The notes under the pieces are model-generated. The model worked only from the letters and a program-made list of their open reading frames with translations. It had not been told where the DNA came from and made no database searches. The translations under genes were made by a program, and so were the position numbers. Shown one piece after another: positions 1-60,595 of a stretch of 64,000 nucleotides of DNA (position 1 is the first letter of the stretch; each line of letters starts with the position of its first letter). The DNA comes from Veillonellales bacterium. Its GTDB lineage: Bacteria; Bacillota; Negativicutes; JAAYSF01. Location of the stretch: the NCBI GenBank assembly GCA_039680175.1, contig JBDKTO010000074.1, forward strand, positions 1 to 64,000, written 5' to 3'.

Positions 1-60
1 CACTTTCTTCTGTGAAGTTTTCAGGGAATATACCTTCGGGATGTTCACCTGAACAAAATA
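1..60 (+). other. 23S-5S rRNA spacer (partial)
   Basis: Sequence lying directly 5' of the 5S gene. No 23S 3' end is recognisable inside the window, so the 23S gene must lie before base 1. It is read as the internal spacer of an rRNA operon because the 5S and tRNA-Asn genes follow at once. No gene is seen in it. Confidence 0.55.
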
Positions 61-176
61 TCCAGTGGCGATAGCTATGGGGTTCCACCTGTTCCCATAC
101 CGAACACAGTAGTTAAGCCCATAAACGTCGAAAGTACTTGGCTGGAAACGGCCTGGGAGGATAGATAGCTGCTGGT
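61..176 (+). rRNA. rrf: 5S ribosomal RNA
   Basis: Contains the near-universal 5S core CCGAACACAGTAGTTAAGC (100-118), and the two ends pair (CCAG near the 5' end with CTGG near the 3' end) to form helix I. Its length of about 116 nt is normal. It lies 4 bp before a tRNA-Asn and is the last rRNA of an operon read on the plus strand. The exact ends are approximate by one or two bases. Confidence 0.93.
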
Positions 177-180
177 TTAT

Positions 181-256
181 TCCTTGATAGCTCAGTTGGT
201 AGAGCAATCGGCTGTTAACCGATCGGTCGTAGGTTCGAGTCCTACTCAAGGAGCCA
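181..256 (+). tRNA. tRNA-Asn (anticodon GTT), CCA encoded
   Basis: Full cloverleaf: acceptor TCCTTGA pairs with TCAAGGA, the anticodon stem ATCGG/CCGAT encloses loop CTGTTAA with GTT at 214-216, and the T arm carries GGTTCGAGTCC. The 3' CCA is encoded at 254-256. It is cotranscribed with the 5S rRNA and ends at the terminator that follows. Confidence 0.97.
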
Positions 257-261
257 CTTTA

Positions 262-300
262 AAACAGCTATTCATTTAATGATGAATAGCTGTTTGTTTT
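262..300 (+). terminator. rRNA operon terminator
   Basis: A 14-bp perfect stem (262-275 with 282-295), six-base loop and then GTTTT. It closes the 5S/tRNA-Asn transcript. The opposite strand has an A/T-rich flank as well, so it could also serve the convergent small gene at 315-539. Confidence 0.9.
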
Positions 301-314
301 ACGTACAGCATGAC

Positions 315-539
315 TTATCGGAACCCAAGCTGTGGATGATGTATTGGCCGCAGATTAAGGCGTGATATGCATCGTACTGCTTGTTCAAGCGTAATGTCCT
401 GGGAGCCGGTTGGCGTTTTTAAAATACACAGGGGAACGGTTGCACCGATTTCACCGGCAGGAAGATAAACATATTCTTCTGACGCCGGATCGCCAAAAAC
501 AATTCCAGCGGTTAAGTGTTCCACAATAATGGTACTCAT
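315..539 (-). CDS. Small hypothetical protein, convergent with rRNA operon
   Basis: A 74-residue protein that I do not recognise. The ATG at 539 is chosen because GGAG sits 8 bases upstream; a TTG four codons earlier lies on top of that ribosome site. The sequence is acidic to neutral with a short N-terminal hydrophobic strand, a Gly/Pro-containing middle and no signal peptide, membrane segment or cysteine cluster. It points toward the rRNA operon and shares the bidirectional terminator at 262-300. Its upstream region is shared divergently with the aminotransferase gene. The case for a real gene is the ribosome site and clean reading frame only; no function can be given. Confidence 0.5.
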   Translation of the reverse strand: MSTIIVEHLTAGIVFGDPASEEYVYLPAGEIGATVPLCILKTPTGSQDITLEQAVRCISRLNLRPIHHPQLGFR

Positions 540-48749: not shown

Positions 48750-49589
48750 ATGAGGATAAACGGCAAGACAAAAATAATCGGGGTAATGGGATGGCCCATT
48801 GAGCATTCACTGTCGCCACGTATGCATAATGCGGCTTTTGCTGCCGCCGGATTGGATTACGTCTATCTGCCGCTGCCGGTGCAGCCGGATCAATCGGCAG
48901 CGGCGATCACCGGGCTGAAAGCGTTAGGCTTTGTCGGTGCGAATGTAACCATCCCCCATAAAGTGGCAGTTATGCAGTATTTGGACGATATTGATCGCAG
49001 TGCGCAAATGGTAGGAGCTGTGAATACCATCGTCATTCAACAGGGAAGAGCGATCGGCTATAATACAGACGCGGCAGGCTTTATTCGTTCCCTGCAGAAT
49101 CGGCAGATTACTTTCGCCGGGGGAAAAGCAGTTATTCTGGGGGCAGGCGGGGCAGCCCGGGCCCTGGTCTGCGGTCTGATTGACCATGCTGTCGATACAG
49201 TTATTATCGGTGCCCGGGATAGGGTAAAAGCGGCTGGCTTGGCTCATTTATTCCGCGATTATTGTAATATTTATGCCTATGACTGGCAGCAGGAAGCCTT
49301 CAATCGTGAAATGGAGAATTGCGACTTATTGATTCATTGCACCCCACTGGGGATGTTTCCCAATATAGCGGCTGAACCGCCGGTTAACTGGCCCCACGTC
49401 AATCCCAGTGCAGCGGTGTGCGATATCATCTACAATCCGTCTCGGACGCGGTTTTTAGAGCAGGCAGCGGCAAGGGGACATGTCGTTATCAATGGGCAGG
49501 GGATGCTGGTTGAACAAGGGGCTGCTGCCTTTGAACTTTGGACCGGTCAGCCTGCACCCCGGGAAATTATGTACAGCGTTTTTACTTGA
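48750..49589 (+). CDS. aroE: Shikimate dehydrogenase
   Basis: 279 residues. Reduces 3-dehydroshikimate with NADPH. Substrate site GWPIEHSLSPRMHNAAFA, NVTIPHK with the catalytic Lys (about 73), Rossmann motif ILGAGGAARALV, NTDAAGF and the C-terminal NGQGMLVEQGAAAFELWTG. ATG at 48750 after GAGGGAGT. It is separated from aroK and aroB by the whole pilus operon, and its end carries a terminator. Confidence 0.95.
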   Translation: MRINGKTKIIGVMGWPIEHSLSPRMHNAAFAAAGLDYVYLPLPVQPDQSAAAITGLKALGFVGANVTIPHKVAVMQYLDDIDRSAQMVGAVNTIVIQQGRAIGYNTDAAGFIRSLQNRQITFAGGKAVILGAGGAARALVCGLIDHAVDTVIIGARDRVKAAGLAHLFRDYCNIYAYDWQQEAFNREMENCDLLIHCTPLGMFPNIAAEPPVNWPHVNPSAAVCDIIYNPSRTRFLEQAAARGHVVINGQGMLVEQGAAAFELWTGQPAPREIMYSVFT

Positions 49590-49604
49590 ACGCTGTATTT
49601 TTTG
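49572..49604 (+). terminator. Terminator overlapping the aroE stop
   Basis: TACAGCGTT (49572-49580) pairs with AACGCTGTA (49589-49597), eight-base loop, T6. The left arm is inside aroE. Confidence 0.82.
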
Positions 49605-49743
49605 TCTGTTATCAGTACTTTAGTTTATTGCTTTGCAGCATTTGTAAATTTTTTATTGTTTTTCAATTTTTTTGGCAGGAAAAAAAAGGGGTATTGCGAA
49701 TATGTATGGTACATAACAAAGTAATAAACATGGATGCGAAGAA

Positions 49744-49790
49744 TTTAAGGCCACAGGTGGGCACTTTAGCCTTAAAGGAGCAGCTAGTGC
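49744..49790 (+). promoter_or_regulatory. Structured leader of the pilus operon, alternative hairpins
   Basis: Two exclusive hairpins can form: TTTAAGGC (49744-49751) with GCCTTAAA (49769-49776), or GCACTTTAGC (49761-49770) with GCTAGTGC (49783-49790), which touches the foot of the terminator that follows. AAAGGAG plus an in-frame GTG (49787) also lies here, so translation could start upstream of the pilB ATG. The layout fits a conditional terminator, but no known riboswitch class (including both c-di-GMP classes) fits by eye. Confidence 0.4.
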
Positions 49791-49842
49791 AACCGGCCAT
49801 TTTGTATAGAATTTTGTACAAATGCCGGTTGCTTTTATTTTT
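49789..49842 (+). terminator. Intrinsic terminator in the pilB leader
   Basis: GCAACCGGC (49789-49797) pairs with GCCGGTTGC (49824-49832), extended by CATTT-GTA against TACAAATG with a bulge, followed by TTTTATTTTTATTA. It lies 17 bp before the pilB ATG and behind the aroE terminator, so any transcript started between them must pass it. Confidence 0.85.
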
Positions 49843-49858
49843 ATTAGGTGGTGCAGAA

Positions 49859-51544
49859 ATGTCCAGCAAACATAAACGGTTAGGCGACATATTAATGGAA
49901 ACCGGCTTGTTAAGCGAAGACCAGTTGAAAAAGGCCCTGGTCGTACAAAAAAAGACCGGAGAACGATTGGGAAAAGTACTTATTAATTTAGATTATATTA
50001 CGGAAGAAAGCATGATTGAAGTACTGGAATTCCAGCTGGGTATTCCTCACGTCAATTTGTCCGATACGGTAGTAAAAGAAGAAGTCGCCGCCCTTATTCC
50101 TGTCTCCTTGGCGGAACGGTATCAGATTATCCCCATTAAGCAGGCAGGGAAAAAGCTTACCCTCGCCATGGTCGATCCCACTAATTTTTTTGCTATTGAC
50201 GATGTGCGCATGATCACCGGCTGCGACGTGGAAGCCGTTATTGCTGCCGAGGGGGAAGTGAAGCGGGCCATTAATCAGTCTTACGGCGTAAGTCAGCTGG
50301 TAGAAAAGGCTGTTCATAAGCTGCAGTCCGAGGAATCTGCCGGAACGGTGGAAATTCAGGCGAAGGATGATGCTCCGATTGTCAGCATCGTGAATTCATT
50401 GATCCATCAGGCAATCAAAGAACGAGCCAGCGATATTCATATTGAACCGCAGGATAAATCGGTGCGGGTTCGGTTTCGCGTTGACGGCATGCTGCGGGAA
50501 GTGGCTGCCTTTCCCCGGCATACCCTTGCGGCATTAATTTCCCGCATTAAGATTATGAGTCAGATGGACATTGCCGAAAGACGGCTGCCTCAGGACGGCC
50601 GGATCAAGTTTACCGAGGCCGGCCGCGAAATTGACATCAGGACGTCCACTCTGCCGACGATTTTAGGTGAAAAGGTGGTAATGCGGATTCTGGATAAAAA
50701 ATCTGTTATTCTGGATATTAAAGCTCTCGGCATGTCGGCGGCTAATTTAAATAAATATCACCATTTATATACTCGTTCCCACGGCATGATTCTGGTCACA
50801 GGCCCTACCGGCTCCGGTAAAACGACGACTTTGTATTCCACATTAACCGACATCAATTCGCCCAGCAAAAATATTATTACGGTGGAGGACCCGGTAGAAT
50901 ACCGGCTGGAAGGGGTAAACCAGGTACAAGTCAACTATAAAGCCGGACTGAATTTTGCCGATGGGTTGAAATCCATTTTACGTCAGGACCCCAATATTAT
51001 TATGGTAGGTGAAATCCGGGACGGTGAGACTGCCGATATTGCCATTCGGGCGGCACTGACCGGTCATCTGGTGCTGAGCACTCTGCATACCAATGATGCT
51101 CCCGGTGCCATTGCCCGGCTGATTGATATGGGAATTGAACCGTTTCTTGTCGCTTCCTCCGTATTGGGGGTCATGGCCCAGCGGCTGGTACGGGTGATTT
51201 GCCCGGATTGCAAGCAGAAATATATACCGTCGCCTGATTCGCCGGAACGGCTGTTTTTACAGCTGACGCCGGCAGCGGATATTACCCTTTACCGGGGAGC
51301 AGGCTGTCCCCGCTGCAATAATACCGGCTATCGCGGTCGGATGGCGATCCATGAACTGATGCCGGTCAGTCTGGCAATCCGGGATTTGATCAACTGCCGG
51401 GCAGGCGGCGACCAGCTGGCGGCGGCTGCGGTGAAGGAAGGGATGCTGACCATGGGACAGGATGGTATCCGTAAAGCGCTGGATGGGTTGACGACAATCG
51501 AAGAAGTGATGCGGGTCGCCTATTCGGACATAGCAGCAATCTAA
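49859..51544 (+). CDS. pilB: Type IV pilus extension ATPase PilB with MshEN c-di-GMP domain
   Basis: 561 residues. Residues 7-30 and 36-59 are two 24-residue MshEN motifs (RLGDILMETG..., RLGKVLINLD...) separated by exactly five residues, the architecture known to bind c-di-GMP in MshE; the second has Asp in place of Gly at the turn. The ATPase core has Walker A GPTGSGKTTT (about 315-324), an Asp box, Walker B LRQDPNIIMVGEIRD, a His box LVLSTLHTNDAPG and the tetracysteine CPDC...CPRC. It powers pilus assembly at the inner membrane. The ATG at 49859 follows AGGTGG; a longer frame exists upstream through the terminator. Confidence 0.94.
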   Translation: MSSKHKRLGDILMETGLLSEDQLKKALVVQKKTGERLGKVLINLDYITEESMIEVLEFQLGIPHVNLSDTVVKEEVAALIPVSLAERYQIIPIKQAGKKLTLAMVDPTNFFAIDDVRMITGCDVEAVIAAEGEVKRAINQSYGVSQLVEKAVHKLQSEESAGTVEIQAKDDAPIVSIVNSLIHQAIKERASDIHIEPQDKSVRVRFRVDGMLREVAAFPRHTLAALISRIKIMSQMDIAERRLPQDGRIKFTEAGREIDIRTSTLPTILGEKVVMRILDKKSVILDIKALGMSAANLNKYHHLYTRSHGMILVTGPTGSGKTTTLYSTLTDINSPSKNIITVEDPVEYRLEGVNQVQVNYKAGLNFADGLKSILRQDPNIIMVGEIRDGETADIAIRAALTGHLVLSTLHTNDAPGAIARLIDMGIEPFLVASSVLGVMAQRLVRVICPDCKQKYIPSPDSPERLFLQLTPAADITLYRGAGCPRCNNTGYRGRMAIHELMPVSLAIRDLINCRAGGDQLAAAAVKEGMLTMGQDGIRKALDGLTTIEEVMRVAYSDIAAI

Positions 51545-51604
51545 CTATTGTTGATAAAAGCAAAATAATAATCAACCAAACGCAACGACGGGGGTTTAAC
51601 GGCT

Positions 51605-52663
51605 ATGATGAAACAATTATTGCGGGAAGCAGTTGAAAGAAAAGCATCGGATTTGCATATTACCGTCGGCGTACCGCCGGTTTTGCGGCTTAACGGAAAT
51701 TTGATTCACTTAGATTACCCTAAGCTGCTGGTAGATGACACGGAAGCATTACTGGAGGAAATTACCACGGAAGAACAGCGTCATCGTTTTCAAGCACAGG
51801 GCGAGCTGGATTTTTCTTTTGCCATTACCGGGTTAAGCCGGTTCCGGGTCAACGCCTTCAAGCAGCGGGGCTCGGTCGCCATTGTTACCCGGGTGGTAAG
51901 TGAAACAGTGCCGACATTGGATCAACTGGGACACCCGGAAGTTTTGAAAACACTGGCCCGCAAGTCCCGGGGGCTGGTATTGGTAACCGGACCTACCGGC
52001 AGCGGTAAATCAACGACGCTGGCGGCGATGATCCATCTGATCAATCAGGAACGGGACTGCCACATCATCACGCTGGAAGACCCGATTGAATATTTGCACC
52101 GGCACAATCGCAGCATCGTAAATCAGCGGGAGATACATGCTGATACGCAGTCTTTTGCCAACGCCCTGCGGGCCGCGCTGCGAGAGGACCCGGATGTCAT
52201 CCTGGTGGGCGAAATGCGGGACGCCGAAACGATCGGCACCGCTATTACCGCAGCCGAAACCGGCCATCTGGTGCTGACCACACTCCATACCGGCGATGCC
52301 GCTCAGACAATCGACCGGATCATCGATGTATTCCCGCCTTATCAGCAGCAGCAGATCCGGCTCCAGCTCTCTATGACGCTGCAGGGCATTGTCGCCCAGC
52401 AGCTTTTGCCCCGCTTGGATGGGACAGGCCGGGTCGCGTCCATGGAAATTCTGGTGGCCACACCGGCTATCCGTAATCTTATCCGGGAAGGCAAAAGCCA
52501 TCAAATACCATCAGTGATTCAAACCGGCGCCAAATTCGGCATGCAGGCCATGGACAATTCCCTGCGGGATTTATACCGTCGCGGGCTGGTATCGCAGGAA
52601 GAAGCACTGGTTCGGGCTCTGGATCCGGAAAACTTTTTGCGGCTTACTAATGGATTGGCCTAA
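51605..52663 (+). CDS. pilT: Type IV pilus retraction ATPase PilT
   Basis: 352 residues. Walker A GPTGSGKSTTLAAMI (about 127), Asp box, Walker B LREDPDVILVGEMRDAET, His box LVLTTLHTGDAAQTIDRIID and the PilT-specific C-terminal AIRNLIREGKSHQIPS (AIRNLIRE motif) needed for retraction. N-terminal ASDLHITVGVPPVLRLNG is typical. ATG pair at 51605/51608 after GGGGG. Retraction ATPase implies dynamic pili (twitching, DNA uptake). Confidence 0.96.
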   Translation: MMKQLLREAVERKASDLHITVGVPPVLRLNGNLIHLDYPKLLVDDTEALLEEITTEEQRHRFQAQGELDFSFAITGLSRFRVNAFKQRGSVAIVTRVVSETVPTLDQLGHPEVLKTLARKSRGLVLVTGPTGSGKSTTLAAMIHLINQERDCHIITLEDPIEYLHRHNRSIVNQREIHADTQSFANALRAALREDPDVILVGEMRDAETIGTAITAAETGHLVLTTLHTGDAAQTIDRIIDVFPPYQQQQIRLQLSMTLQGIVAQQLLPRLDGTGRVASMEILVATPAIRNLIREGKSHQIPSVIQTGAKFGMQAMDNSLRDLYRRGLVSQEEALVRALDPENFLRLTNGLA

Positions 52664-52689
52664 AGTTTAGCATACAGGAGGAAATGATC

Positions 52690-53907
52690 TTGGCAAAAAC
52701 CTTTGCCTACCGGGCTAAAGACGCCACCGGACAGCTGCTGACAGGGACGATAGTGGCCGACAGCCATTCGGCGGTAGCCGCCTTTATCCGGGGAAAGGGC
52801 TATTACGTTACCAATATCCGGGAGCACAAAGAAAATATTTCCCTGAAAGCTTATTGCGACCGTTTCCGCCGGGTCAGTCAGAAAGAGCTGGCCATTTTTT
52901 GCCGGCAGTTTGCGACGATGGCCGAAGCCGGACTGTCTTTTGTAACCTGTATCCATGTTCTTTATCAGCAGACTACCAATGCCAAACTGAAAATGGCGCT
53001 GCAGGATGTGGACCGGAAGATCCAGGAAGGGGAAAGTCTGGCGCAATCCATGGCAGTCCATCCTGACGTATTTCCCGAGATTATGGTGGGGATGATCGAA
53101 GCCGGGGAATTAGGCGGCGTTCTCGACACCGTACTGGACCGGTTGGCCCTGCATTTTGAAAAAGAATATAAAATGAATGAAAAAGTCAAGTCCGCCATGG
53201 CCTATCCGGCAGTCGTCATGACGATGGCCGGGCTGGTAGTTGTCTTTGTTTTGACCTTTGTCCTGCCCACCTTTATGAAGATGTTTGACAATATGAAGGT
53301 TCAGCTGCCGCTGCCGACCCGGATACTGTTATCCGTAAGCGGTTTCATTCAGGACTTTTGGCCGTTTATTCTGCTGTTTTTAGGCGCAGCCGCCGCCGGC
53401 TTTATGGTGTTGTATAAAAAGCCATCGGTGAAAATGCAGCTGGACCGGTTCGTATTGCAGCTACCGGTTTTCGGCCTGCTGACTCGCAAGGTGATCATTG
53501 CCCGCTTTTCCCGGACCATGGGGACGCTGCTCCGGGGCGGCATGCCTATCCTTAAAGCTCTGGAGGTGGTAAAGAAAACTACCGGCAATACCGGTATGAC
53601 GAAAGCCCTGATGTCCGCTCAAAACAGCGTGCGGGAAGGGCAGGGGCTGTCCACACCCTTAAGCTCCAGCAGTCTGTTTACCCCCATGGTAGTGCAAATG
53701 GTGGCTATCGGCGAAGAATCCGGGGAATTGGACAAGATGCTGGACAAAATCGCCGACTTCTATGAAAGTGATGTGGACGATATGGTCTCCCGGCTGAGCA
53801 GTCTCATCGAGCCGGTGTTGATCGGCGTGCTGGGGGTGATCGTCGGCGGAATTATTATCTCAATTGCTTTGCCGATGTTTGATGCGATTACCAGTGTTGG
53901 ACAATAG
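52690..53907 (+). CDS. pilC: Type IV pilus inner-membrane platform protein PilC
   Basis: 405 residues with two T2SSF domains: first about 65-190 (FCRQFATMAEAGLSFVTCIHVL, GMIEAGELGGVLDTVLDRLA), three membrane segments (about 165-190, 220-245, 370-395), second domain about 268-390 (FSRTMGTLLRGGMPILKALEVV, MVAIGEESGELDKML). It is the platform rotated by PilB/PilT. TTG at 52690 is preferred: AGGAGG lies 8 bases upstream, while the ATG at 52684 is only 2 bases from it. Confidence 0.95.
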   Translation: MAKTFAYRAKDATGQLLTGTIVADSHSAVAAFIRGKGYYVTNIREHKENISLKAYCDRFRRVSQKELAIFCRQFATMAEAGLSFVTCIHVLYQQTTNAKLKMALQDVDRKIQEGESLAQSMAVHPDVFPEIMVGMIEAGELGGVLDTVLDRLALHFEKEYKMNEKVKSAMAYPAVVMTMAGLVVVFVLTFVLPTFMKMFDNMKVQLPLPTRILLSVSGFIQDFWPFILLFLGAAAAGFMVLYKKPSVKMQLDRFVLQLPVFGLLTRKVIIARFSRTMGTLLRGGMPILKALEVVKKTTGNTGMTKALMSAQNSVREGQGLSTPLSSSSLFTPMVVQMVAIGEESGELDKMLDKIADFYESDVDDMVSRLSSLIEPVLIGVLGVIVGGIIISIALPMFDAITSVGQ

Positions 53908-53991
53908 TTTCGAAAAAAATCGTGGCTTAACTGACCGCGTTAATATAAATTCTAAATTTAAAACGTTAGAACAAAGAAAGGGGATGTTGAT

Positions 53992-54435
53992 ATGATTATT
54001 AATTTAAGAGAGAAAATGAAAAACCAAAAAGGATTTACGCTGGTTGAATTAATGGTGGTTATTGCTATTATCGGAATATTGGCGGCTATTGCGATTCCAA
54101 AGTTTACTAGTGCAAATGAGACTGCCAGAGGGGCAAAAATGCAGGCAGACTTGAGAACAATCGACAGTGCTGCGATGTTGGCTATTGCTCAAGCTAATCA
54201 TCCAGTAGCTGCCACCGCTAACATTAATGATGGTGCAAATTTCTCCAACGATGTAATTGCTAACTTAAACAGTCCCGCTAACCTTGCCCCCCCTGTGGGC
54301 ACATGGAGAACGACGATCCACCCAGCCTCACAACCAACACCAAGTGTTGCTACTTATGGACTTAACGCCAATGGAAGAGGGATACTGAATGCTGGTGGTG
54401 ATGCAGCTTCAACATATACTGCTGAAACATTGTAA
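53992..54435 (+). CDS. pilA: Type IV major pilin (prepilin)
   Basis: 147 residues. A 14-residue basic leader ends KNQKG, then F+1TLVE+5 and the hydrophobic helix VVIAIIGILAAIAIPKF, the class III/IVa signature for cleavage and methylation by PilD. The mature protein of about 133 residues has an A/N/T-rich globular domain without cysteines, so no disulfide D-loop. ATG at 53992 after GGGGATG. A strong terminator directly follows, allowing a major-pilin transcript distinct from the rest. Confidence 0.93.
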   Translation: MIINLREKMKNQKGFTLVELMVVIAIIGILAAIAIPKFTSANETARGAKMQADLRTIDSAAMLAIAQANHPVAATANINDGANFSNDVIANLNSPANLAPPVGTWRTTIHPASQPTPSVATYGLNANGRGILNAGGDAASTYTAETL

Positions 54436-54506
54436 TTGTTTGACGATTAGTATTACAATAAATCAAGTTTATAGCTAGAAATTATCTGAATTTCGGTCAA
54501 ATAAAG

Positions 54507-54562
54507 GGAATGGTAGGGTACAAATATAATTGTTTTTATCAATTACCCTACCAATTCCTTTT
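54507..54562 (+). terminator. Terminator after the major pilin
   Basis: GGAATGGTAGGGTA (54507-54520) pairs with TACCCTACCAATTCC (54544-54558) with one bulged base, then TTTT. It would make the pilA message more abundant than the downstream genes. Confidence 0.85.
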
Positions 54563-54603
54563 GATCTTATTCTATGTATCATGTAGAGAAAGGCTAGATC
54601 TGA

Positions 54604-55401
54604 TTGATTAATTTTATATTCTTTTTATTCGGTTCAATTATTGGCAGCTTTCTCAATGTCTGCATCTACCGCCTCCCACAAGGCGAATCCATTGTTACCC
54701 CGCCGTCTCACTGTACTGTCTGCGGCAAGCAGCTAAAGCCCTGGGATATGATTCCCATTTTAAGCTGGCTGTTGCTGAAAGGCCGCTGCCGCTATTGCGG
54801 TACGGCGATTTCTGTTCGCTATGGGGTGATTGAACTTTTAACCGGAATTTTATTTGTCTGGTGCCTGGAGATCCTGGGCTTAGGCCCGGCACTGTTCAAG
54901 GCTTTGTTGTTGTTTTCCTTTTTGCTGGTTATCACTTTCATTGACTATGATCATCAACTGATTCTGGACAAGGTTCTGCTCTGGTTCGCTCCGGTTGGTG
55001 TGGCGATAAATTTGTTGATTAATCATATTAATTTTTTTGCCAAGGCAGCGGGTTACCCGGAAGGATTCGTTGCTTTACAAACCGGTTTGCCGGACATGCT
55101 GATCGGAGCCCTGCTGGGCGGCGGAGCTTTTCTGCTCATTGCCGTCGTCAGCCGGGGCGGCATGGGTGGGGGCGACATTAAATTTGCCGCCGCACTCGGC
55201 CTGTGGCTGGGCGGGAGATTCACCTTGCTGGCTGTTTTTTTATCTTTTCTCTTCGGCGGCCTTGCCGGTATTCTTTTGCTATTGCTGAAACGAAAGGGAC
55301 GCCGGGATATGATCCCTTTCGGCCCGTTTATTGCTCTTGGCGCGGTTGTGACTATACTGTACGGGGTGGATATCCTGAAATGGTATTTGCAAAGGATGTG
55401 A
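54604..55401 (+). CDS. pilD: Prepilin peptidase / N-methyltransferase PilD
   Basis: 265 residues, polytopic aspartic peptidase. N-terminal domain has GSIIGSFLNVCIYRLP and the zinc-binding CTVCGKQLKPWD...CRYCG, present in bifunctional enzymes that also methylate residue 1. The catalytic aspartates are in FIDYDHQLILD and GMGGGDIKFAAALG. About eight membrane helices. TTG start at 54604 with an AAAGG site about 10 bases before. Confidence 0.94.
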   Translation: MINFIFFLFGSIIGSFLNVCIYRLPQGESIVTPPSHCTVCGKQLKPWDMIPILSWLLLKGRCRYCGTAISVRYGVIELLTGILFVWCLEILGLGPALFKALLLFSFLLVITFIDYDHQLILDKVLLWFAPVGVAINLLINHINFFAKAAGYPEGFVALQTGLPDMLIGALLGGGAFLLIAVVSRGGMGGGDIKFAAALGLWLGGRFTLLAVFLSFLFGGLAGILLLLLKRKGRRDMIPFGPFIALGAVVTILYGVDILKWYLQRM

Positions 55402-55405
55402 CCGG

Positions 55406-55870
55406 ATGTTGTCGCTGAATCAGCGGGGCTTTACCCTGATCGAATTGCTGATGGTGATTGGGATTCTGGGGATCGTGGCGGCGATTGCTTTGCCCAGAAT
55501 GGGAACAGCATCAGATGAGCGGAATGTCGATCTTGCCGCCAGAGAACTAGCCGCCGATTTGCGCTGGATGCAGCAGCTGTCCGTCAATTCAGTCGCCGGT
55601 TCCGGCGAGCCATTTGTTCCAGCCGGTTCGCGGCCATTTTTATATTTTAACAATGCTGCTCCTTTAGGCTACACGATTACGCTTGCTGCGCAAACCATCA
55701 AAACAGTTACCTTTCCGGCAGGTGTACGGGTGAATACGCCGCCTTCCTCGGTTGACTTCAGCATTAACGGCATGCCTAGCAGCAATCAGACGATTTCCTT
55801 GCAAAGCGGTACGGTTTTTCGCAATGTTTATATTGATTCGCCGGGCAGAGTGCGGGTAAACACTCAGTAA
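55406..55870 (+). CDS. Minor pilin, FimT/GspH-like
   Basis: 154 residues. Short leader MLSLNQRG, then FTLIELLMVIGILGIVAAIALPRM. The GspH/FimT pattern continues with ERNVDLAARELAADLRWMQQLSV and a beta-rich C terminus. Minor pilins of this kind help start or tip the filament, and FimT can bind DNA in some transformable bacteria; that property is not shown here. The ATG lies 4 bp behind pilD. Confidence 0.85.
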   Translation: MLSLNQRGFTLIELLMVIGILGIVAAIALPRMGTASDERNVDLAARELAADLRWMQQLSVNSVAGSGEPFVPAGSRPFLYFNNAAPLGYTITLAAQTIKTVTFPAGVRVNTPPSSVDFSINGMPSSNQTISLQSGTVFRNVYIDSPGRVRVNTQ

Positions 55871-55897: not shown

Positions 55898-56311
55898 ATG
55901 CAAAAAGGACAGCAAGGTTTCCTTATGCTGGAGGTAGTAATTGCCACTGTAATCATCAGCCTGGCTCTGGTCGCGGCTGCCGGGATGTTCATCCAATCCA
56001 CCAAAGCCAACAGCAGCGCCGCCGACTATACGGTGGCCGCCAATCTGGCGCAGAAACAGCTGGAACTGCTGAAAAACAAGGATGTTTCTTACTGGACGAT
56101 TCATGCCAGCGAGCCGAATATTCCCTGGCAGGATACCGGGGAAACGCTGCCGCTTACAATCAATCAAATCCGCTATAATATAACAACTCAGTCCACGGTT
56201 TCGCCGGAAAATAGTTATTTAGTCCAGGTTGTCGTTACCGTATCCTGGACAGACCCGGGGAAAAATTCGCAGCGGACTGTCCAAATGACTGCCTTTTACC
56301 CGCTGATTTAA
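55898..56311 (+). CDS. Minor pilin, PilV-like
   Basis: 137 residues. Leader MQKGQQG, then FLMLEVVIATVIISLALVAAAGMF with Glu at +5, then AANLAQKQLELLKNKD and a short beta domain. The PilV/GspI pattern (LMLEVVIA) and location between FimT- and PilW-like genes support a priming-complex minor pilin. ATG after GAGGATGG. Confidence 0.83.
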   Translation: MQKGQQGFLMLEVVIATVIISLALVAAAGMFIQSTKANSSAADYTVAANLAQKQLELLKNKDVSYWTIHASEPNIPWQDTGETLPLTINQIRYNITTQSTVSPENSYLVQVVVTVSWTDPGKNSQRTVQMTAFYPLI

Positions 56312-56349: not shown

Positions 56350-56886
56350 ATGAAAAAATTTTTGCCAAGACAGCAGGGATTTACCTTAGTGGAGCTTTTA
56401 ATCGGTATGGCTCTTACTGTGCTGCTGCTGGCAGTAATTTTCGGCTTGCTGTTTACGTCTGTAAGAACCTGGCAGACCGGCAGCAGCCGGGCCGATATTC
56501 AGCAGACCGCCCGCTATGGTGTGGATATTATGGTTCGTGATTTGCAGTATGCCACCAAAATTACCATCAGTAATCCTCCTGCCAGTATTGATTTATGGAC
56601 AAGCAAATATGGTGCAGCTCAGCAGATTACCTATAAGCGAGTACTAGTCGCCGGTCCGGCGATCAGCCGTTATGTACTGACCCGGGATTTGCATAATGGG
56701 GCCGGAGCGCAGCCGGTAACCGGCGGAGGTGAGTTGGCAGTCAGTATCGCTGCGCTGACGTTTACCGATTTGACACCGGCCGGACATTCCGGCACCAAAA
56801 CAGTGGGAATTCTTCTGACGGTACAGGATGATGCTGGCCGCAGCTATACACTGGAAACAGCGGCTGCCGCCATGATGATTCCGTAA
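56350..56886 (+). CDS. Minor pilin, PilW-like
   Basis: 178 residues. Leader MKKFLPRQQG, then FTLVELLIGMALTVLLLAVIFGLLF, ARYGVDIMVRDLQYATKI as in PilW/ComGF/GspJ-type proteins, then a beta domain. ATG 56350, with GGGAGG 11 bases before. Together with the flanking genes it forms the standard FimT-V-W-X minor pilin set. Confidence 0.83.
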   Translation: MKKFLPRQQGFTLVELLIGMALTVLLLAVIFGLLFTSVRTWQTGSSRADIQQTARYGVDIMVRDLQYATKITISNPPASIDLWTSKYGAAQQITYKRVLVAGPAISRYVLTRDLHNGAGAQPVTGGGELAVSIAALTFTDLTPAGHSGTKTVGILLTVQDDAGRSYTLETAAAAMMIP

Positions 56887-56905: not shown

Positions 56906-58093
56906 ATGGTATACAGGGAGAGACGCTATGAGCAACAAGGCTCAGCCGGAATTATGGCGTTGGTTGTACTGCCGCTGCTGCTGGCTTTAGGAGCGGCCTT
57001 AGTCATGCTGACTTCCAGCGAAAGCAATATCTCCGCCAACTTTCGCGACGGAATTGCCGCTCAGTATTTGGCGGAAGCAGGAGTTCAGCATGCTGTTGTC
57101 AAATTGAAAACAGACACCGGCTTTGTAGCTGCCACGCAAGTTCCTGCCGCTGCGACAGCTAACACCCTGAATTCAGCTGCCGCGAAAAACAGCGGGGCGA
57201 CTGCCGGAACGTATACAGTCACAGTGACCGGGTCCGGCAATAGCCGGAAGATCATTTCCACCGGGACGGTCAACAAGGCCAAGCGTCAGGTCGTCGTTAA
57301 TATCACCTTGCCTTCGGGCGGCGGCAATGAGATTTACAGTTACGCTATTTATTCCGGTGATTTATTTACGATTGACAGCGGGGCAACGGTGAATGGCCCG
57401 GTTGGCACCCAACTTAGCCAGTATAGTAAAAATGGGGGCACCATTAATAATAGTAATATAAATCCTGTGGATGTCAGCAAAACAGAAACGCTGCCGGCCA
57501 TACCGGTTTCTTTTGACAGCAATAAGTACAGGGACTGGTCAACGGCTTTATCCAGCAGTCTCAACAGCGGCAATAATGCGGTGTCGGGCAATTATTTCGT
57601 CAACGGGGACTTGAATTTAAACAGCGGAGTCAACTTAGCGGGTCCCGGCGGTACCAGCGATCCGGCGGTAATTTATGTCAAGGGCGGCACCAATATCGGC
57701 GGCAACATTACCGGCAATGTGACCATTATTGCCAATAGCGGGGTTAATATCAACAGTGGGATAACGATTAACGGCAATGTAAAGATTTATGCCAATAGCG
57801 GGGTCAATGTTAGTTCGCCTATGTCAGGCAATATTCTGGTCATGGCAAACGGCGATATTAATTTGAACAGCGGCACGCCAGAAAAGCCCAACGAATTTTT
57901 CAATGCGGTTATGGTAGCAACAACCGGCGATATAAAGGTTGATAATGTTACCTTAACCGGTGTGGTACTGGCAGCGAAAACTTTGACCTTGAACAGCGGG
58001 GCAACGGTAACTTATAACTCGACTGTAGTGCAAAATGTGGGTTTGAGTTCTGCTGCAACACCCTTTACGGTTAATTCATGGGGTAATCAATAA
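56906..58093 (+). CDS. Minor pilin, PilX-like, with long beta-helix-like C domain
   Basis: 395 residues, three times a usual minor pilin. The N terminus is PilX-like: basic leader, QQGSAGIMALVVLPLLLALGAALVM as membrane anchor, then NFRDGIAAQYLAEAGVQHAVV. Residues about 150-395 are Gly/Asn/Ser-rich with seven NSG turns (LNSGVN, ANSGVN, INSG) spaced as in parallel beta-helix rungs, resembling the DUF7305/bactofilin-like bodies of some PilX proteins. No cysteines. The size and the repeat suggest a surface-exposed tip or adhesin module. GTG/ATG context: ATG at 56906 follows GGGAGG. Confidence 0.82.
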   Translation: MVYRERRYEQQGSAGIMALVVLPLLLALGAALVMLTSSESNISANFRDGIAAQYLAEAGVQHAVVKLKTDTGFVAATQVPAAATANTLNSAAAKNSGATAGTYTVTVTGSGNSRKIISTGTVNKAKRQVVVNITLPSGGGNEIYSYAIYSGDLFTIDSGATVNGPVGTQLSQYSKNGGTINNSNINPVDVSKTETLPAIPVSFDSNKYRDWSTALSSSLNSGNNAVSGNYFVNGDLNLNSGVNLAGPGGTSDPAVIYVKGGTNIGGNITGNVTIIANSGVNINSGITINGNVKIYANSGVNVSSPMSGNILVMANGDINLNSGTPEKPNEFFNAVMVATTGDIKVDNVTLTGVVLAAKTLTLNSGATVTYNSTVVQNVGLSSAATPFTVNSWGNQ

Positions 58094-58117: not shown

Positions 58118-58390
58118 ATGCATATTAAAAATTATATGGAAGACTTGGTGTGGGATCATTTGGACCGGATTATCGAATCTTCAAACACCTGCAATTGTGA
58201 AAAATGCCGGTACGATATTGCGGCACTGGCTCTAAATTTTTTACCGCCGCGATATGTGGTCACCGATAGAGGGGAAACTTATACCCGGGTCAAAGCCCTG
58301 GAGCAGCAGTTCTATGTGGATGTTATTACTGCCATCAGCAATGCCGTTCAAATTGTCCGCAGCCGGCCTCATCATGAAGACGGAAAGTAA
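58118..58390 (+). CDS. comFB: ComFB-family late competence protein
   Basis: 90 residues: NYMEDLVWDHLDRIIE, CNCEKCRYDIAALALNFLPPRYV and QQFYVDVITAISNAVQIV are the ComFB pattern with its Cys trio. ComFB was named from the Bacillus comF operon; related proteins in cyanobacteria and other bacteria have been reported to bind cyclic dinucleotides, including c-di-GMP, and to affect pili. Here it lies inside the pilus operon between the PilX-like gene and pilM, which supports a regulatory role in pilus function. ATG after GGGAGG. Confidence 0.9.
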   Translation: MHIKNYMEDLVWDHLDRIIESSNTCNCEKCRYDIAALALNFLPPRYVVTDRGETYTRVKALEQQFYVDVITAISNAVQIVRSRPHHEDGK

Positions 58391-58399
58391 AGGAATAGT

Positions 58400-59476
58400 A
58401 TGTTCAATAAGCTGAAAAATTTAATTATGAAGCAAAACCGGGATGCCATTGGTCTGGATATCGGGACAAGTTCGATTAAACTGGCGGAAGTCGTTTGGCA
58501 GAAGGAGCGGCCGCTGCTAAAAAATTTGGGGATCGCTGCCTTGCCGGAAAAACTAATGGGCGAAGGAATTTTTTCCGATGCCGGGCTGTTGACGGAGCTT
58601 ATCCGCAATCTGCTGGCAACCAGCGGTGCTGTCAGCTCCAACGTTGTTGCAGCAATTGGCAGCCGCAGCGTATTTATCCGGGAGGTATTGTTTCCCGCGA
58701 TGTCGGCAGAGGAGTTAAAGGAAGCCGTCAAATGGGATATGGAAAAATACGTTCCCTATGAACCGGACAGCTATTATTACGATTTTGCTGTTGTCGGGCC
58801 CGGGGAAACCGAGTTGGAACTAAAAATATTGCTGACTGCCGCACCGAAAGAAAATGTAAATGAACTAGTAACCGTGCTGAAAAACTGCGGGCTTAAACCG
58901 CGGGCTGTCGATATTGAGCCGCTGGCTTTATTGTCCACGTTATCCGGCGCCGACAACGCAGTTATAGTGGATATCGGCGGCATGTTTTCCCAAGTGATTC
59001 TCTTTCAGCAGGGCAGCCCGGTGGCAGCCAGAGCCATCCCCCTTGGCGGCAATCGCTTTACCGAAGTGATTAGGCAAAGCCTGGAGCTTCCTTTCGCGGA
59101 AGCGGAGCACTTGAAACAGCGGCAGCAGGGTTTGCTGCAGCGAGTTGATGCCGCCGGCAAGGACGCCTCGGAAATTCATCAGCAAATGGAATTGTTAGTC
59201 AATGAACTGGCCAGGGAAGTACAGCGAACAATTGAATACTATAGAATACAACATAAAGCAGCAGCAGTAGAGAAGATTTTTCTCGCCGGCGGGGGAGCAA
59301 GGTTAGCCAATTTAGCGCCTTACTTGGCAGCACAAATGGATATTCCCTTAACCGTACATGATCCCTTCGGGACGGTAGAAACAGCAGCCTCTTTTGACCG
59401 TCAATACTTAACGGAGATTGCGCCCCAGTATGCGGTGGCGTTAGGACTGGCACTGCGGGGAGGTGTTCCTTTATGA
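58400..59476 (+). CDS. pilM: Type IV pilus assembly protein PilM
   Basis: 358 residues, actin-like cytoplasmic ATPase: GLDIGTSSIKLAEV (phosphate 1), VVAAIGSRSVFIREV, AVIVDIGGMFSQVILFQQG (phosphate 2) and IFLAGGGARLANLAPYL (adenosine). It binds the cytoplasmic tail of PilN and connects the inner-membrane complex to PilB. Overlaps pilN by 4 bp. Confidence 0.95.
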   Translation: MFNKLKNLIMKQNRDAIGLDIGTSSIKLAEVVWQKERPLLKNLGIAALPEKLMGEGIFSDAGLLTELIRNLLATSGAVSSNVVAAIGSRSVFIREVLFPAMSAEELKEAVKWDMEKYVPYEPDSYYYDFAVVGPGETELELKILLTAAPKENVNELVTVLKNCGLKPRAVDIEPLALLSTLSGADNAVIVDIGGMFSQVILFQQGSPVAARAIPLGGNRFTEVIRQSLELPFAEAEHLKQRQQGLLQRVDAAGKDASEIHQQMELLVNELAREVQRTIEYYRIQHKAAAVEKIFLAGGGARLANLAPYLAAQMDIPLTVHDPFGTVETAASFDRQYLTEIAPQYAVALGLALRGGVPL

Positions 59477-60003
59477 TCCGCCTCAATTTGCTGCCGCCGG
59501 AAGAACGTCAGTCAAGGCTGCCGCTGCCAAGAATCTTCCTGTTGGTCACCCTGATTGTTTCCTTGTTTATGGTTAGCATTTATTTCTATACGGTATTTTC
59601 TATCTGGAATTTGGAAAAGCAGATTACTGAAACCGAGAATCAGTATGAATTGCTGAAACCGACCCGGGATGCTATGCAAACTGCCGCTGCCAGGCAGCAG
59701 GTGATTTCGGCAAAAAACAGCATCCTGTTGGGGTTGACCAAGGAACGCCAGTCCTGGTATGCTTTAACTACGCACCTTGGCATGGTAACAATCCCGCAGG
59801 TGTGGCTGTCTGAGATTGGCGTGGCCGAAGAAAATACGCTGCATATTAAAGGTGCGTCCTATACATATCCGGATCTGGCAGCTTATTTGAAAGTTTTGGC
59901 GCAGGATGAAATGTTTCAGGAGCCGGTTTTGGTCAATGCCGAGAGGGATGGGGCTACCGGAGCCACCAAGTTTGAAATCACGGTAAAGCTCAAGGGGAGA
60001 TAG
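59473..60003 (+). CDS. pilN: Type IV pilus assembly protein PilN
   Basis: 176 residues. The cytoplasmic N-terminal peptide MIRLNLLPPEER is the PilM-binding INLLP motif, followed by one membrane helix (about 20-42), a coiled coil and a ferredoxin-like domain. Forms a heterodimer with PilO. ATGA overlap with pilM. Confidence 0.94.
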   Translation: MIRLNLLPPEERQSRLPLPRIFLLVTLIVSLFMVSIYFYTVFSIWNLEKQITETENQYELLKPTRDAMQTAAARQQVISAKNSILLGLTKERQSWYALTTHLGMVTIPQVWLSEIGVAEENTLHIKGASYTYPDLAAYLKVLAQDEMFQEPVLVNAERDGATGATKFEITVKLKGR

Positions 60004-60007
60004 CCAG

Positions 60008-60595
60008 ATGAATTTTTTGCTGCAGACGGTTAAAATGAATGAGAAACAAAAGAGTGCTGTTTTTGCCGTTGCGCTGCTGCTGCTGGCGGCACTTTTTTAT
60101 CTTGTCTTTTTTTCGCCCCAGCATCAGCGAATGCTGAATTTGCAAAATCAATATCAGACGGAACGGCAAAAGGTAAAAAGTATCGAAGCCTTTGCGCTGG
60201 TTCATCCTAATATAGATCAATATCTGACAGAATTGGACGGACAGTTTGCTCAGGTTGAAAAGCAGCTGCCGGAATCCCTTGCTATCGGCGATTTTTTAAT
60301 TCAGGCCGAGCAAGTCAGCCAAGACAGCGGCGTTCAGTTAATGCATATAAAACCGCTGCCGGTTATCAATAAAAACGGTTACCGGGAAATACCGCTGGAA
60401 GTAGTAATAAAGGGGAAATTTTCGCAAACGATTGCTTTTTTAAAAAAACTGGAAGAAATTTCGCGGTTTAATGCCGTAACCAATATGTCGGTTCAGTCGA
60501 AACAGGGTATATTAGAAAGTAAGTTAACGGTCATTTTGTACAGCTATGGCAGCACGCCGGCTGCCGGCTCTCCGGCGGCGCCGGCAAAAAAATAG
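60008..60595 (+). CDS. pilO: Type IV pilus assembly protein PilO
   Basis: 195 residues: short cytoplasmic tail, membrane helix (AVFAVALLLLAALFYLVFF, about 19-37), coiled coil (about 40-75; QNQYQTERQKVKSIEAF), then a ferredoxin-like periplasmic domain (PLPVINKNGYREIPLEVVIKG). C terminus is Ala/Pro-rich. Normally joined by PilP and PilQ, which are not encoded here; the next gene is aroK. Confidence 0.92.
   Translation: MNFLLQTVKMNEKQKSAVFAVALLLLAALFYLVFFSPQHQRMLNLQNQYQTERQKVKSIEAFALVHPNIDQYLTELDGQFAQVEKQLPESLAIGDFLIQAEQVSQDSGVQLMHIKPLPVINKNGYREIPLEVVIKGKFSQTIAFLKKLEEISRFNAVTNMSVQSKQGILESKLTVILYSYGSTPAAGSPAAPAKK

Follow-up and report, generated by a model that had tools for sequence, protein, structure and literature searches.

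A PilX-type minor pilin of a Veillonellales bacterium with a predicted ComZ-like beta-solenoid insert, a domain present in some Negativicutes and absent from others

The 64,000-nucleotide stretch analysed here (the window) comprises positions 1 to 64,000 of the forward strand of contig JBDKTO010000074.1 (assembly GCA_039680175.1) of a Veillonellales bacterium, of the class Negativicutes. It carries a type IVa pilus cluster in the order PilB, PilT, PilC, major pilin, PilD, GspH-like, PilV-like and PilW-like minor pilins, the gene considered here, ComFB, PilM, PilN, PilO, aroK and aroB. Our subject is the last of the four minor-pilin genes (56906-58093), whose product a first-pass annotation had described from the letters alone as an oversized PilX-like minor pilin with an Asn-Ser-Gly (NSG) beta-helix body, possibly a tip adhesin. 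We consider it probable that the protein is a ComZ-like tip pilin, with a solenoid inserted in its pilin body that would serve as a tip-displayed ligand-binding module. The features of the gene, followed by those of its neighbours, are listed below with the basis of each in brackets:

56906..58093, + strand: K/PilX-type minor pilin carrying a predicted inserted beta-solenoid, 395 amino acids (open reading frame, PilX_N match, AlphaFold, Foldseek)
56906..56941, + strand: putative prepilin leader, residues 1-12, RYEQQG followed by SAGIMALV (cleavage site inferred from the motif)
56909..57112, + strand: predicted long N-terminal pilin helix, residues 2-69 (AlphaFold)
57206..57307, + strand: three predicted pilin beta-strands, residues 101-134 (AlphaFold; counterpart of strands 94-132 of a short orthologue)
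57347..58012, + strand: predicted inserted beta-solenoid, residues 148-369, a run of short strands (AlphaFold, Foldseek, VIA-align)
57563..58000, + strand: seven NSG triplets at residues 220, 239, 277, 283, 297, 321 and 363, predicted solenoid corners (sequence and model)
58067..58087, + strand: predicted last pilin strand, residues 388-394 (AlphaFold, low confidence; sequence kept in short orthologues)
49538..55401, + strand: PilB, PilT, PilC, major pilin and PilD (PilB, PilT, PilC and PilD named from sequence reading and order, no family search)
55406..55870, + strand: GspH-like minor pilin (family hits, locus comparison)
55898..56311, + strand: PilV/GspI-like minor pilin (family hits, locus comparison)
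56350..56886, + strand: PilW/GspJ-like minor pilin (weak family hits and position)
58118..60595, + strand: ComFB (PF10719), then PilM, PilN and PilO (the last three named from sequence reading and order)

The reading frame opens with ATG directly behind a GGGAGG-type ribosome site, and the mature protein has no Glu at position +5. Its PilX-like character is borderline by score, with PilX_N (PF14341) matching residues 12-60 at 27.5 bits in a six-frame search and at 22.7 bits by hmmscan, on either side of the cut-off of 25.5. The protein is indeed longer than its neighbours, by a factor of 2.2-2.9 relative to the adjoining minor pilins of 154, 137 and 178 residues rather than the threefold first estimated. 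A match to DUF7305 (PF23981) at 57566-58024 is weak (23.7 bits, cut-off 27), and this family is absent from the general Pfam scan listings of the gene. A tblastn scan with the window protein as single query gave 62 stretches and no relative.

The seven NSG triplets reported within residues 150-395 are all present, and an eighth lies at residue 95. In 20,000 residue shuffles of positions 140-395, which preserve composition only, the mean count was 0.53 and the maximum six, so that seven or more were never reached. The Asn, Ser and Gly codons differ from one copy to another by eye, which argues against a recent tandem repeat of the DNA. So high a number of triplets sets this protein apart: each of the 50 further long PilX proteins that we collected has 0-3. 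We therefore rejected the repeat as a defining trait, its number not being shared among homologues.

The AlphaFold model of the window protein, built on an alignment of 13 sequences (five of them long, the window's included), has a mean predicted local distance difference test score (pLDDT) of 74.9 and a predicted template modelling score (pTM) of 0.60. It places pilin strands at 101-108, 113-122 and 125-134 (pLDDT 73-80) behind the long helix and stacks the following residues into a solenoid, with ten-residue block means of 86-92 over 151-180 and of 81-93 over 221-370, except for 54 at 321-330. Six rungs of 18-24 residues can be made out by eye between 251 and 370; most bear NSG or a substitute (KGG, NGD, TGD) at one corner, with further NSG triplets at a second. 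Five of the seven solenoid triplets lie wholly in coil against a background of 0.214 (p 0.006), and the middle residue is coil in all seven. The prediction thus agrees with the first-pass annotation in giving a stacked beta-solenoid on a pilin stalk with NSG at its turns, and the disordered or non-repetitive domain that would have spoken against it did not appear.

What had been taken for a simple C-terminal body is better read, in the comparison with short relatives, as an insert. The model of the short orthologue of Pelosinus propionicus (nine sequences, mean pLDDT 74.0) has a helix at 6-67 and strands at 94-102, 111-120, 123-132 and 142-146, with no solenoid. In the alignments the insert begins after the strand following KRQ (AKRQVVVNITLP in the window protein) and ends before the last strand, which reads PFEIIWDY in the long Pelosinus forms and FTVNSWGNQ in the window protein. 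Of the main-locus PilX proteins, 14 of the 17 long ones and 20 of the 24 short ones have a Trp within the last 16 residues, as do 23 of 34 satellite copies. The last strand is poorly modelled, but comparing the sequences indicates an identical insertion point; the solenoid is thus predicted to interrupt the pilin ahead of its last strand, the arrangement found in ComZ.

ComZ of Thermus thermophilus (PDB 6QVI) is described in the excerpted text of PMC6561018 as a pilin with a solenoid inside, proposed to be a DNA receptor at the pilus tip; PMC13234629 and PMC9956873, also seen in excerpt, treat it as well. A Foldseek search of the PDB with the window model gave three matches at E<=0.001, all of them ComZ chains (7.4e-5 to 5.6e-4), and VIA-align superposed 297 residues of the model (40..395) on ComZ at Z 12.9 with a root-mean-square deviation (rmsd) of 9.5. 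The short model also finds ComZ first by VIA-align (Z 9.8, 101 aligned, rmsd 3.3), its residues 44..147 running onto ComZ 9..522, that is, across ComZ's solenoid. Next come PilA of Streptococcus sanguinis, in a tie at Z 9.5, and a 295-residue chain of the Xcp pseudopilus at Z 8.7, which we take from its size to be the K subunit. Apart from this pseudopilus model, the fold-match lists hold no GspK entry as such.

The window protein and ComZ are alike in their pilin fold, in a large beta-solenoid (predicted here) between the penultimate and last pilin strands, and in a gene that adjoins other minor pilins. They differ in the size of the solenoid (about 380 residues in ComZ, about 220 here), in the lack of detectable sequence similarity, and in that the Negativicutes insert is optional and, in satellite copies, apparently exchanged among relatives. 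GspK, the tip pseudopilin of type II secretion, likewise occupies the K position and has an additional domain set into its pilin sheet, and the short pilin aligns with the 295-residue Xcp chain; in the excerpted accounts, however, the extra domain of GspK is alpha-helical and inserted at another point. PilB and PilC of S. sanguinis also display a functional module on a small pilin, proposedly at the tip, but in the excerpted account (PMC8179133) their modules, a von Willebrand factor A (vWA) domain and a lectin, lie C-terminal to the pilin rather than inside it. Among proteins that join an N-terminal pilin part to DUF7305, the relatives at loci L016, L022 and L035 exceed the family's cut-off, whereas the window protein stays under it.

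Of 341 genomes of the class searched with a profile of the pilin portion, 78 gave a match, and from these 41 main loci, the window's included, were chosen mainly for strong matches and available flanks. PilX follows PilW in all 41 and is itself followed by ComFB (38 loci), PilM (one) or PilN (two). Its length falls into two classes, short in 24 loci (130-173 amino acids) and long in 17 (322-445), with none between; what varies among these homologues is the presence of the whole domain. Mapped on a tree built from eight other proteins of the cluster, the length class requires nine changes, at least seven of them forced by starred branches; a second tree under a mixture model, with 34 rows and without L126, L123, L135, L136, L130, L131 and L118 (long or joined branches), needs seven, at least six forced. 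Within Pelosinus, two of six loci are long (L100, L101) and four short (L096-L099, with L096, L097 and L099 belonging to P. propionicus, P. fermentans and Pelosinus sp.), each set at 100 by the Shimodaira-Hasegawa-like approximate likelihood ratio test (SH-aLRT).

Two simpler accounts of the short forms were rejected. They are not frameshifted long ones, as in 23 of 24 loci the distance between the PilX end and the start of the next cluster gene is only -25 to 73 bases; the remaining one, L097, has a 289-base gap after PilX, where no ComFB was picked up. Nor do satellites seem to compensate for an empty main PilX: a further long PilX (counted at E<=1e-6, DUF7305 matches excluded) occurs in nine of 24 genomes with a short and seven of 17 with a long main copy, which gives no sign of complementarity.

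The 51 long proteins (window included) comprise 17 from main loci and 34 satellites, and among them the similarities of pilin and body disagree in places. For the satellites L103 and L109 the identity is 66% in the pilin and 32% in the body, whereas L109 and L139 share 33% and 58%, and L103 and L140 share 32% and 51%. In the alignment L103 and L109 have a common last-strand end (SWxNK) that differs in L139 and L140, and the pilin tree joins them at 100/100. Approximately unbiased (AU) tests on the pilin rejected the forced pairings L109 with L139 (p 4e-6) and L103 with L140 (p 0.0017), and on the body rejected L103 with L109 (p 6e-43). By these comparisons there appears to be one clear case, among the satellites, of pilin and solenoid with different closest kin.

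Several satellite arrangements were seen alongside. The bodies of L041, L148, L150, L153 and L154 are closer to each other than to the solenoids; in L041, the only one of these scanned, DUF7305 gave no match and DUF1961 a weak one (0.025), and the five may carry an entirely different fold as passenger at this position of the gene. L036 has two PilV-PilW-PilX(long) sets side by side on opposite strands of one genome (PilX of 404 and 446 amino acids). L038 and L137 are tandem minor-pilin sets in one genome, the first ending with a 524-residue PilX and the second with a 144-residue PilX before ComFB and PilM. A second set also occurs in the genome that the window comes from, consisting of a PilW-like pilin and a 514-residue PilX with DUF7305 matches (L042, G000:C40, 1616-3157, minus strand, on a 5,018-base contig).

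The machinery around the gene is of type IVa: PilB, PilT, PilC, PilD, PilM, PilN and PilO (protein names by reading) are joined by one secretin match (PF00263) elsewhere in the genome. A PilY1 search found none in 341 genomes, but the control genomes were silent too and the result is unusable. With the sites placed by script, none of the 41 PilX proteins carries Glu or Asp at mature position 5, whereas all 41 GspH have Glu, 36 of 37 PilV have Glu or Asp and 35 of 36 PilA have Glu; of 41 PilW proteins, 34 have Glu there, four more have it one residue off by eye, one has Ala and two are unassigned. Minor-pilin tip complexes are capped by a subunit without Glu5 (PMC10191384, in excerpt), and this absence, together with the gene order H-I-J-K, makes the tip the best-supported location for the window pilin in our analysis.

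We infer the following course of events. The protein would be made as a prepilin and cut by PilD after Gly12, and would then join the H-, I- and J-type pilins of its own operon to start the fibre and end up at the tip. There the solenoid would be displayed outward and contact a ligand, which extension and retraction by PilB and PilT would deliver or pull on. The solenoid is most likely a ligand-binding module, with a surface, a polymer or DNA as candidate ligands; a surface or extracellular polymer is favoured over DNA, because relatives can lack or exchange the domain on an otherwise unchanging pilus machine, as would be expected of a specificity module.

A number of points weigh against this reading. 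In the window model the last strand is the weakest part (block means 47 at 381-390 and 58 at 391-395), residues 181-220 (63-73) and the block at 321-330 are also weak, and the model as a whole rests on the 13 sequences and has the overall scores given above. The C-terminal Trp is not universal in any of the three sets. The short model has no Foldseek match at E<=0.001 (ComZ comes first, at E 0.19), its near-equal likeness to an I-like pilin means that the fold alone is no proof of K type, and neither phmmer nor a profile search of the PDB sequences gave a sequence match to ComZ. The script misplaced some sites of mature position 5. The 41 loci are a non-random sample of the 78 matching genomes among 341, PilV went undetected in four of them (L126, L132, L135, L136) and PilM in three (L126, L130, L131), and since 24 of them lack the domain, a pilus can evidently do without it. 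The trees, whose supports are SH-aLRT values from quick searches, are silent on gain versus loss, and length class is partly inherited, its nine changes comparing with shuffled means of 13.3-13.5 and with six and ten of 500 shuffles as low. Of the 51 long proteins, the exchange test covered 12, and its pairs were picked once the similarities were known; none of the nine inner branches of the body tree is starred, so that the AU test alone is informative there; and two L036 proteins stand under one label in the similarity table, with their rows mixed. The solenoid and pilin of the window protein agree in their near relatives (L043, L044), and no swap is therefore claimed for it, although L110 is its second-nearest by pilin and seventh by solenoid.

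The strongest competitor keeps the same architecture and makes the ligand DNA, the protein being a competence receptor as proposed for ComZ; we regard this as possible but doubtful. In ComZ, whose structure is the closest, lysines lying between the two domains (K98, K233) bind DNA even though the solenoid has no positive patch (PMC6561018, in excerpt), the window's genome has one match to a ComEC-type gene (PF03772), and a ComFB gene (58118-58390, PF10719 at 1.4e-27) adjoins the gene. Yet ComFB lies beside pilX in 38 of 41 loci, long and short alike, and so does not track the solenoid. The body here has a net charge of -5 (median -4 over the 51 long proteins, above zero in three). This lends no support to DNA binding by charge alone, although the ComZ solenoid likewise lacks a positive patch, and an optional, exchanged domain would fit variable ligands better than DNA.

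It is unlikely, on our estimate, that the solenoid is a shield or decoy whose turnover is driven by phages or predators recognising pilus tips, even though repeated changes of state and swapping at one site would also be expected from escape of recognition. We give a little less credit to a minor pilin of the shaft, or a secretion-type pseudopilin, carrying the solenoid as a side branch. Both the pseudopilus model and PilA, a minor pilin of S. sanguinis, do match the pilin fold, and according to the excerpted PMC10191384 certain minor pilins are distributed over the length of the fibre; but the lack of Glu5 in 41 of 41, the H-I-J-K arrangement of the genes and the accompanying PilT, PilM, PilN and PilO point to a type IVa tip, and a large insert in the pilin sheet would be hard to pack in a shaft, as argued for ComZ in the excerpts of PMC6561018.

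An ice-binding domain on the pilus is very improbable: the predicted solenoid resembles the fold of DUF3494-type proteins, and its 25 best VIA-align matches are all antifreeze or ice-binding proteins (168-183 residues at 2.5-3.5 Å, Z 15.6-17.2), but their context is other, DUF3494 is not among the Pfam matches to E=1 of a scan whose filters drop weak matches, and the ComZ solenoid resembles the same fold too, without conserved ice-binding residues (PMC6561018, in excerpt), so that only the fold is shared. A disordered, low-complexity tail is hardly credible: Asn, Gly, Ser or Thr make up 47% of the body, but the block pLDDT over most of 221-370 is high, solenoid folds are the best matches and the ends are conserved.

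With the tip-displayed, inserted solenoid as our preferred reading, we lean towards a wider proposal: that PilX of the Negativicutes is a socket, with the gap between the last two pilin strands as the fixed site where solenoid cassettes enter, leave or replace one another and with a pilin half that evolves together with its operon, so that tip specificity would change by recombination within one gene. ComZ (PMC6561018) and modular pilins (PMC8179133) are already published, and among the open-licence papers listed in our searches, judged by title and the start of the abstract, none describes solenoid-bearing pilins in Negativicutes or exchange at one insertion point; we found none on DUF7305 either. 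Our comparison suggests that ComZ, described as unusual in the excerpted paper, has many counterparts in this class. If the socket proposal is true, one genus would run the same pilus with an empty, a filled or a differently filled tip. Pelosinus offers natural within-genus sets that differ by the insert, the operon being otherwise conserved, and with the same pilus available with and without it the role of the tip module becomes testable. Should the exchange reading be right, these bacteria would evolve their tip specificity by swapping cassettes at a fixed point.
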